Source of the DNA: an uncultured Methylococcaceae bacterium
GTDB taxonomy: Bacteria > Pseudomonadota > Gammaproteobacteria > Methylococcales > Methylomonadaceae
Reading direction: 5' to 3'
Length of the DNA stretch: 62,166 bases
NCBI GenBank assembly: GCA_903863905.1
Contig: CAIPDT010000090.1
Span: forward strand, 1 to 62,166
Below are positions 11,763 through 13,713 of this stretch, piece after piece. The notes under the pieces were generated by a model. It saw nothing but the letters and a program-made list of their open reading frames with translations, was not told the origin of the DNA and did not search any database. The position numbers and the translations under genes were made by a program. Each line of letters opens with the position of its first letter. Within the stretch, counting starts at the first letter, position 1.

Positions 11763-12668
11763 TTATACAATTTCCCTTGCTTTTACAAAGGCTTCTCTAA
11801 AATCAAGATATAAAGACTGATCCGTTTCGAGCAATAATTTTAACATATTATGTTGAAGCTGATATTTAACATTACCTACCGCCAAGGCACCCACCGCAAC
11901 AGCACCGGTGGAATTAACCGCATGAATGAGAGGTGCACCTAAATCATTATGCTTAATGCCTTCAATTCCTAATGGCGGCACGGCATTAACATCGCCCACG
12001 ACTTTTAATTGAGTTGCTTCTTTAAGCACGCCAGCACTGAGTACTTGCACACCGGCCTTAGCCGTACAAAAAATAACGTCAGACTTCTTTATTAATTGTG
12101 CCTTTTCACTCTCTGTACTGGCGACAGCGCCTTGTAAAGTACATCCAAAACGACGATTATAGGCTTTAGCGATATCCGAGGCTGTTTCGACAGACAAGTG
12201 ATCAACTAGAAAAGTTTCAGCGCCTGCTAAAGAAGCAATAATACCGGTTGCTATTCCTACCGGCCCAGTGCCGCCAAAAACTAAAACCCGACTACCTGTT
12301 AAATCTCCATTATGTTTTTCTTTTAACTGCTTCTCAACGCAAGCTACTAAGGCAGCGGCGGTTGTAAATGCACCACTAGGGTCAGCAAATACTGAAACTT
12401 CAAAAGGGGGTACCATGGCTTGGCGACTGACATCCAACATATCCATCGCCAAACCTAAATCACGACCGCCAATGAAGATAGCCGTGCGTTTAACGCCCGC
12501 TGGACTTCTTGAAAAAATAGCATCTTGAGTTAACCTATTAACACTGTCTAATTTAACATTGCTATAGGGCATAAGCACATCAAACCCAGCATCCAAAGCC
12601 ATATTAACATCAAATGGACTGTTATTAGGTGTGGGGTCAAGCATGTGAAGAATGCTACGCTTCTCCAT
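11763..12668 (-). CDS. mtdB: Methylene-H4MPT dehydrogenase paralogue 2 (MtdB family)
   Basis: Predicted NAD(P)-dependent methylene-tetrahydromethanopterin dehydrogenase, oxidising methylene- to methenyl-H4MPT in formaldehyde oxidation. All family motifs shared with the neighbouring paralogue are kept: SPFDVNMALDAG (17-28), IFIGGRD (64-70), VPPFEVSVFADPSGAF (86-101) and DVNAVPP. The Rossmann motif is GGTGPVG (132-138). The end of the second strand reads LVDHL, with Asp156. An acidic residue there usually favours NAD over NADP. The sister protein has Gly-Arg at the same place, so cofactor preference probably differs. The gene starts at an ATG after AGAGGA, 47 bases from the first copy. It could also be a member of the MtdC class. 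Confidence 0.8.
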   Translation of the reverse strand: MEKRSILHMLDPTPNNSPFDVNMALDAGFDVLMPYSNVKLDSVNRLTQDAIFSRSPAGVKRTAIFIGGRDLGLAMDMLDVSRQAMVPPFEVSVFADPSGAFTTAAALVACVEKQLKEKHNGDLTGSRVLVFGGTGPVGIATGIIASLAGAETFLVDHLSVETASDIAKAYNRRFGCTLQGAVASTESEKAQLIKKSDVIFCTAKAGVQVLSAGVLKEATQLKVVGDVNAVPPLGIEGIKHNDLGAPLIHAVNSTGAVAVGALAVGNVKYQLQHNMLKLLLETDQSLYLDFREAFVKAREIV

Positions 12669-12715
12669 AAGAGATCCTCTTAATTTAATAAATGCAAGTA
12701 AAGTAACGTTTTAGG

Positions 12716-13624
12716 TTAACTATTAGATTTAATATATTCTCTAGCCACTTCAAACGCATGTTCAAAATGTAAATAAACTGGTTTGTCAGTCGTTAACATT
12801 TTTTTCAACAAACGGTTTTGTGACTGATATTTAATATTTCCAATCGCTAAAGCACCAATACCCACGGCGCCACTGTTTGATCCTTCAATCGGTGTACCAT
12901 TGTGAAAAGCATCCACACCTGCAATACCAGCGGGTGGAACCGCATTAACGTCAGCGGCTACTTTTAATTGTGGCGCAGACGCAATTAATTCTGCACTTAA
13001 TAATTCAATTCCCGCCGCACCGGTTGCAAAGACAACATCGGCTGTTTTGATATACTCGGCTTTATCCGAATCCGCACCCGCCGTAATAGTGATTTTACCG
13101 TCACCAAATTCATTGCTACATAAATCAGCAACTGCTTGTGCTTTTTCTAATTGTCTACCAATAATTCTTACATTTGCACCGGCTTGTGCTGAAATCACTG
13201 CAGCCGCTTGACCTACAGGGCCTGTTCCACCTAAAGCAATGATGTTTTTTCCTGCTAAGGTCGTGTTGAATTTGGTCATTAACTCATGTTCAACAGCAGC
13301 AACCATACCTGCAGCTGTCGTAAACGCTCCACTTGGATCAGCAAAGACAGATACTTCAAAAGGCGGTACCATTGAACGTTTTGCCGTCTTTAACATGTCC
13401 ATCGCTTGCTTAGTATCACGACCGCCAATAAAAATACCGGTACGTTTTAAGTTCTTAGTGCTACGAGAAAAAATAGCATCTTGTACTAAGCCTTGAACTT
13501 CGCTAGGCTCTACGTTGATGTAAGGTAATGCTGAAACCCAACCTGCATCTAATGCCATATTGACATCAAAAGGACTTAAGTTTTTAGCTGTCGTCAGCAT
13601 GTGTAAAATGAATGGTTTTTCCAT
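12716..13624 (-). CDS. mtdB: Methylene-H4MPT dehydrogenase paralogue 1 (MtdB)
   Basis: Predicted methylene-tetrahydromethanopterin dehydrogenase of 302 residues, a core enzyme of the H4MPT-linked formaldehyde oxidation pathway of methylotrophs. The substrate-side motifs SPFDVNMALDAG, IFIGGRD and VPPFEVSVFADPSGAF are present. The dinucleotide motif GGTGPVG (132-138) is followed by strand 2 ending IIGRQ, with Arg157 placed to contact an NADP phosphate. The start has a strong ribosome site (AAGGAGC, four bases before ATG). It is the upstream copy of a tandem duplication. MtdA and MtdC are related alternatives, but the MtdB-like N-terminus fits best. Confidence 0.85.
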   Translation of the reverse strand: MEKPFILHMLTTAKNLSPFDVNMALDAGWVSALPYINVEPSEVQGLVQDAIFSRSTKNLKRTGIFIGGRDTKQAMDMLKTAKRSMVPPFEVSVFADPSGAFTTAAGMVAAVEHELMTKFNTTLAGKNIIALGGTGPVGQAAAVISAQAGANVRIIGRQLEKAQAVADLCSNEFGDGKITITAGADSDKAEYIKTADVVFATGAAGIELLSAELIASAPQLKVAADVNAVPPAGIAGVDAFHNGTPIEGSNSGAVGIGALAIGNIKYQSQNRLLKKMLTTDKPVYLHFEHAFEVAREYIKSNS

Positions 13625-13680: not shown

Positions 13681-13713
13681 TGCTTATTTAGGCCTAAACA
13701 GCCTAAATAAGCA
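13681..13713. terminator. Perfect 13-bp stem-loop between mutS and mtdB
   Basis: TGCTTATTTAGGC (13681-13693) is exactly complementary to GCCTAAATAAGCA (13701-13713), with a 7-base loop. It separates the mutS stop (13731) from the mtdB start (13624) on the minus strand. A T-rich stretch comes 10-20 bases after the stem rather than directly. It probably ends or trims the mutS transcript; this is inferred. Confidence 0.5.

Follow-up and report, generated by a model that had tools for sequence, protein, structure and literature searches.

The closest solved relatives of the proteins described here are structures of MtdA from Methylorubrum extorquens (PDB:1lu9, 6tge, and 6tlk). MtdA, which is named as NADP-dependent in 6tge, has the sequence G-R-x3-K at residues 151-156. 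In the H-type MtdBs of Alpha- and Betaproteobacteria, the corresponding positions (156-157 in the numbering used below) hold Ala, Gly, Ser, or Thr followed by His or Tyr. The MtdBs of the M. extorquens lineage have Gly-His, with neither Asp nor Arg, and the available text of one paper records the M. extorquens enzyme as using either NADH or NADPH (PMC3227643). MtdC is described, in excerpts of another paper, as a group separate from both MtdA and MtdB, from planctomycetes and an uncharacterized microbe (PMC3505017). A similar switch is found in the shikimate dehydrogenases AroE and YdiB, which have a basic NADP pocket and a more neutral NAD pocket, respectively. (These enzymes catalyze another reaction, so this is an analogy only.) In the accessible part of PMC7144000, Arg150 and Arg154 of AroE, and Arg149 and Lys153 of a mycobacterial relative, are cited for the preference for NADPH, and YdiB, a paralog of AroE, binds NAD via its more neutral pocket.

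For the Methylococcales, the published models that we found do not resolve how formaldehyde electrons are divided between NADH and NADPH. For M. album, a genome-scale study gives the H4MPT pathway simply with [NAD(P)H] (PMC9040813, in part), and the mtdB of Methylosinus, an alphaproteobacterium, is labeled "NAD" in one table (PMC3615186, in part). We did not find a description of a cofactor split between MtdBs in open-licence papers from PubMed Central (other papers may have one), and the available parts of other papers on mtdB, the H4MPT pathway, or H4MPT flux do not mention it.

The window is a stretch of 62,166 nucleotides from an uncultured Methylococcaceae bacterium (contig CAIPDT010000090.1). 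It includes two adjacent genes, which we refer to as copy 1 and copy 2:

12716-13624, minus strand: copy 1, the first gene of the pair, an MtdB-type methylene-H4MPT dehydrogenase of 302 amino acids (open reading frame, PF09176, MtdA relatives in PDB, AlphaFold2 model, and tree)
13154-13159, minus strand: codons for Gly156-Arg157 of copy 1, at the end of strand beta-2
12669-12715, minus strand: intergenic gap of 47 bp between copy 1 and copy 2
11763-12668, minus strand: copy 2, the second gene of the pair, an MtdB-type methylene-H4MPT dehydrogenase of 301 amino acids (open reading frame, PF09176, AlphaFold2 model, Foldseek, and tree)
12198-12203, minus strand: codons for Asp156-His157 of copy 2, at the end of strand beta-2
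13681-13713, no strand assigned: terminator-like hairpin of 13 pairs between mutS and copy 1 (terminator scan)

Both proteins combine an N-terminal Mpt_N domain (PF09176) with a Rossmann domain, as is typical of MtdB, according to Pfam and the models. The Mpt_N matches are over the cut-off (E = 6e-37 for copy 1 and 3e-37 for copy 2); no NCBIfam match for the pair was above cut-off among the matches listed. The two proteins are identical at 158 of 301 positions (52%, BLASTP). On the copy 1 side, the pair is flanked by mutS, whose product has MutS domains, and on the other side by a metallophosphoesterase gene. The 47-bp gap is consistent with co-transcription of the two genes, and our scan found no terminator-like site within it. 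The hairpin upstream of copy 1 is within chance expectation (one in this region, against a mean of 1.9 in shuffled sequences). More broadly, promoter- and terminator-like sites are no commoner in this region than in shuffles.

In the AlphaFold2 models of both copies (mean pLDDT of 95.5 for copy 1 and 95.7 for copy 2), the second Rossmann strand spans residues 151-156, with residue 156 as its last. Copy 1 has the R-type motif GRQLEK, with basic residues after beta-2 and no acidic residue at its end, as in NADP-type Rossmann enzymes. Copy 2 has the D-type motif DHLS, with Asp156 closing the strand, as in NAD-type Rossmann enzymes. MtdA is the nearest solved relative of both copies among PDB sequences, and is also the top Foldseek match to the copy 2 model (6tlk and 1lu9, TM 0.89-0.90), with about 30% identity in the structural alignment. 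The G-R-x3-K of MtdA aligns with the motif of copy 1, Lys256 of MtdA corresponds to Lys268 of copy 2, and other invariant residues are common to these proteins as well. The Arg-x3-Lys/Arg spacing in copy 1 is also that of AroE and its mycobacterial relative.

The preliminary description, made from the DNA sequence, is thus correct that two dehydrogenase genes lie side by side on one strand and that they have Gly156-Arg157 and Asp156-His157, respectively, where the second Rossmann strand ends. It was mistaken in one detail, the gap-free alignment through the nucleotide-binding core: directly behind the motif, copy 2 carries an additional residue, and its next helix starts at residue 160, instead of 159 in copy 1.

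To what extent is the pair conserved? A search of 311 genomes of Methylococcales gave a match to the family in 288; at least 18 of the other 23 belong to a single family (f2). We read the motif at loci from 142 of the 311 genomes, representing six families. (This sample is made up of the best 30 genomes of the order search, picks across families and genera, 60 top-listed genomes, and a few extras, with overlaps, and close relatives are over-represented in it. Proteins shorter than 250 amino acids, or 260 in one of the comparisons, were dropped before the motifs were counted.) Both copies are intact in 137 of the 142 genomes, and in all 137 they are adjacent and on one strand, with copy 1 before copy 2 and a median gap of 44 bp (range 5-348). 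Gly156-Arg157 is present in every copy 1 of these genomes, with residue 161 being Lys in 123 and Arg in 14. Asp156 is present in all 141 copy 2 sequences of the same genomes; the next residue is His in 132 of them and Pro in nine. The feature is therefore genuine, and every intact pair that we examined has it.

The fixation of the motif is not for want of divergence, as identity within the order is as low as 49% among copy 2 sequences and 56% among copy 1 sequences. Across 138 distinct copy 1 and 144 distinct copy 2 sequences, 65 columns are invariant in copy 1, 52 in copy 2, and 39 in both. In 38 of these 39 columns, the two copies have the same residue. The sole exception is 156, with Gly in copy 1 and Asp in copy 2. 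Since 137 genomes all have the difference at 156-157, and since it includes the only column that is invariant in both copies yet differs between them, it is beyond chance. The residues that are invariant and identical in both copies include Ser17, Pro18, Asp20, Asn22, Gln48, Asp49, Phe52-Ser53-Arg54, Asp96-Pro97-Ser98-Gly99, Thr102-Thr103, Asp226, Asn228-Ala229, and Lys268. Judging from MtdA, these would include the residues on the pterin side.

In the five remaining genomes of the 142, one copy is not intact. In four of them (G131, G058, G260, and G245), the second copy is truncated by the end of a contig. In the fifth (G115, 79% complete), a frame change, either real or from the assembly, interrupts copy 1. 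Copy 1 of another genome (G059) stops 20 bases from the end of its contig. We also checked ten genomes individually, and five of these (G207, G077, G151, G055, and G019, with stated completeness of 90-98%) have only a match of MtdA grade; either the pair was really lost or it fell into an assembly gap. Two genomes of one genus in family f4 have extra copy 2 genes away from the pair, all with Asp156, for totals of three in G036 (L281, L282, and L283) and two in G037 (L087 and L284).

Some Methylococcales have a third type of MtdB-like protein, not linked to the pair, with a Cys-Gln-Leu motif and 37-43% identity to copies 1 and 2:

L123:3125-5058, L124, L125, L126, L127, and L128: third MtdB-like type, in genomes G069, G041, G073, G260, G160, and G258

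Five of these sequences form one clade in the 98-row tree described below (support 100/100). One genome (G069) has two such genes in tandem, beside genes for radical-SAM/lipoyl-synthase-like and lipoyl-ligase proteins, and in another (G073) a single gene adjoins that for GTP cyclohydrolase II.

Outside the order, we counted motifs, with no filtering, in 93 distinct MtdBs. His or Tyr at 157, preceded by Ala, Gly, Ser, or Thr, is present in 82 of them, and Arg is present in two. Asp156 is present in nine, all of them from Methylophaga or Methylophaga-like bacteria. A wider search of the class gave 27 further sequences, of which three have Asp156; all three are from family f97 and belong to the same clade as Methylophaga. 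The H-type MtdBs of Alpha- and Betaproteobacteria are about 43-54% identical to the two copies and have the MtdB-wide residues in common with them. (Because we chose the 85 sequences of our H-type comparison set as non-Asp, they say nothing on whether Asp is absent.) The R-type and the D-type each occur without the other in other Gammaproteobacteria, as follows.

First, in six gammaproteobacterial genomes from three families (f136, f175, and f219), a GR-type protein is the only one of MtdB grade. These proteins have GRK or GRQ motifs and are 59-66% identical to copy 1. The genomes differ from the Methylococcales in having one MtdB-grade match each in a search with copy 2. Second, the D-type MtdBs of Methylophaga have the motif VDHFS and are 61-64% identical to copy 2; no partner of the copy 1 type is present at the nine Methylophaga-like loci or in the three f97 genomes. 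At the nine loci, the second gene upstream of the D-type MtdB encodes an R-type MtdA-like protein (L186:2048-2914 and equivalents), with a Ser/Cys-Arg motif and 43-47% identity to the MtdA-like protein of the window's genome. This upstream protein might be MtdC-like. One f97 genome (G709) has no MtdA-like match at E = 1e-30. The D-type gene of Methylophaga sulfidovorans (L186) has a GHMP-kinase-family gene on one side and an ATP-grasp gene on the other. By our assignment, the kinase-family gene probably encodes beta-RFAP synthase, an enzyme of H4MPT synthesis, and these neighbors suggest that the D-type MtdB probably serves the H4MPT pathway.

Phylogenetic trees indicate how the two copies are related to these proteins. 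Our two main trees leave out MtdA; in a separate tree with MtdA sequences, copies 1 and 2 group with MtdB and apart from MtdA. (Similarly, Pro18, Asn22, Met23, Gln48, Asp49, and Pro97 are common to copy 1, copy 2, and other MtdBs and are not found in MtdA.) The later main tree, of 98 rows, was built without the motif columns. Five rows of the first tree were removed from it, including a divergent D-type copy 2 (from G020) that was inside the D clade in the first tree, and six of the 29 rows from the wider class search were not added. In this 98-row tree, the copy 1 sequences form a clade (100/99) that falls among the single GR-type proteins (97/85 and 99/93), with one of the latter (from G831) in a weak, open fork (80/84). 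Copy 2 and the Methylophaga proteins form a clade with support of 100/100. The deep position of this D clade is unstable: it lies by copy 1 and other Gammaproteobacteria in the first tree (89/52) and by the Alphaproteobacteria in the 98-row tree (98/92).

We compared alternative groupings with the AU test. A clade of the Methylococcales copies by themselves, which is the hypothesis of the preliminary description, was rejected (p-AU = 0.0005). A clade of copy 1 with all D-type rows, leaving the single GR-type proteins outside, was also rejected (p-AU = 0.008). One clade of copy 1, copy 2, and Methylophaga was not rejected (p-AU = 0.12) in a tree from which the single GR-type proteins were absent. 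A caveat is that the groups were chosen after trees had been viewed, the first and third after the first tree and the second after the 98-row tree, so the p values are softer than they appear. Together, the trees and the AU tests lead us to reject a duplication inside the order. The genes are indeed arranged in tandem, as the preliminary description had it, but the split between them looks older than the order. Since the trees disagree on where the D clade branches at depth, we limit our claim to this. Nor is the pair a recent duplication with no conserved difference at 156-157, as the copies are not sisters in the trees and differ there in 137 of 137 intact pairs. The pair may have been assembled by transfer, or it may have been retained from an old duplication that was followed by losses or transfers.

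What would the two motifs mean for cofactor use? An Asp at the end of beta-2 is the classical signature of NAD-dependent enzymes and normally discriminates against the 2'-phosphate of NADP. We propose that copies 1 and 2 are NADP-preferring and NAD-preferring methylene-H4MPT dehydrogenases, respectively, and that they split the reductant at formaldehyde oxidation; we put the probability of this at roughly 75%. Both enzymes would catalyze the same step of formaldehyde oxidation, in which methylene-H4MPT is converted to methenyl-H4MPT, each with its own electron acceptor. In copy 1, Arg157 and Lys161 follow beta-2 as in the NADP-dependent MtdA and would confer a preference for NADP. In copy 2, a 2'-phosphate would be repelled by Asp156, which would bind the 2'- and 3'-hydroxyls of the adenosine ribose instead, giving a preference for NAD. 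The conserved pair would then direct electrons from formaldehyde to biosynthesis (as NADPH) or to respiration (as NADH). Of the corresponding suggestion in the preliminary description, the motif difference is confirmed across 137 genomes, and the cofactor preference itself is inferred, with strong support from sequence comparisons. Because the Asp-containing sequences form one clade (100/100), the 141 of them represent a single event that was conserved, rather than repeated tests.

Copy 1 could instead be NADP-dependent while copy 2 uses both cofactors, like the MtdB of M. extorquens, with no clean split. We consider this unlikely, though worth keeping in mind. His157 is kept in 132 of the 141 copy 2 sequences, as in most MtdBs outside the order, and one His-type enzyme is described, in the available text, as working with either NADH or NADPH (PMC3227643). 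As MtdBs of that lineage have Gly-His, cofactor use need not be set by the local motif alone. The nine copy 2 sequences with Asp-Pro are another counterpoint to a clean split. On the other hand, every copy 2 sequence has Asp156, none of the alpha- and betaproteobacterial MtdBs that we listed has it, and Asp at this position normally disfavors the 2'-phosphate.

It is improbable that copy 2 diverged mainly in its substrate (to H4F or another pterin) or in some other role, with the Asp being secondary. Such a change would fit with the modest identity of the two copies (52%) and with five columns besides 156 that differ between them at 95% or higher conservation in each copy (such as Trp29/Phe29 and Ala203/Lys204). 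Also, copy 1 has 26 invariant columns of its own and copy 2 has 13, so there may be differences between the copies beyond their cofactor. Against this, the residue is the same in 38 of the 39 columns that are invariant in both copies, and the closest outside relative of copy 2, the MtdB of Methylophaga, has a probable H4MPT synthesis gene as its neighbor. This alternative includes the suggestion that copy 2 is MtdC-like. MtdC is closer to MtdA, and copy 2 is just 31% identical to the MtdA-like protein of its own genome, as compared to 52% to copy 1 and 61-64% to the Methylophaga MtdB. This disfavors an MtdC identity for copy 2, as judged by distance from MtdA.

Finally, it is very improbable that the pair arose by a plain tandem duplication in this lineage and then drifted neutrally at 156-157. 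In favor of this, the copies are adjacent in all 137 genomes, and one grouping with Methylophaga survived the AU test when the single GR-type proteins were left out, but the other two groupings were rejected, and the motif is invariant even among copy 2 sequences that are only 49% identical.

We also considered the pathway and the other sources of NADPH. The window's genome has one match each to mch and fae, on contig C20, so the H4MPT pathway is present at these steps at least. Its MtdA-like gene is separate from the pair, on contig C110 near genes for a 2-hydroxyacid dehydrogenase and an aminotransferase, and its product is 36% identical to copy 1 and 31% to copy 2. The Pnt transhydrogenase of this genome is encoded on contig C50, also separate from the pair, and Pnt is present in all 23 genomes searched, this one included. 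MtdA and Pnt already offer routes to NADPH in this organism.

Few neighbors of the pair are conserved. No neighboring family is common to more than three of ten regions (the window and nine others). Among 20 neighbors scanned with Pfam, there is no recognizable H4MPT-pathway gene; a metallophosphoesterase gene adjoins the pair in three regions, one of them in the window. All three genomes that we checked from families f6 and f7 have pntB downstream of the pair, on the same strand and within about 1.8-5.2 kb:

L295:1374-5693 (G308): pair and pntB
G306:C177:7851-12913: pair and pntB
G305:C31:29275-37650: pair and pntB

In one of these (G308), pntA is directly downstream of copy 2. On the other side of the pair, G308 has a gene for an isocitrate/isopropylmalate dehydrogenase, and G305 has a related gene. 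The linkage to pntB hints at a role for the pair in the balance of NADH and NADPH. It is a local feature, found in three of 22 genomes, as the other 19, by contig or distance, and the window's genome have pntB elsewhere.

The methylene/methenyl-H4MPT step is reversible. If enzymes of NADP type and NAD type act on one pool, then the pair could function as a soluble transhydrogenase, exchanging electrons between NADPH and NADH via the common methylene/methenyl-H4MPT pool, alongside Pnt. We view this as a rather remote prospect. If true, electrons would be exchanged at the formaldehyde branch in most of the Methylococcales that we examined, and the D-type MtdBs would make up a class of their own within the family, one that produces NADH.

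If our preferred reading, of NADP- and NAD-preferring enzymes, is correct, then the Methylococcales have an order-wide pair of isozymes, with a gene of its own for each electron sink. This would provide a handle for flux models and for engineering. It would also be a clean natural case of cofactor specialization, in which one fixed position differs and most others are unchanged.
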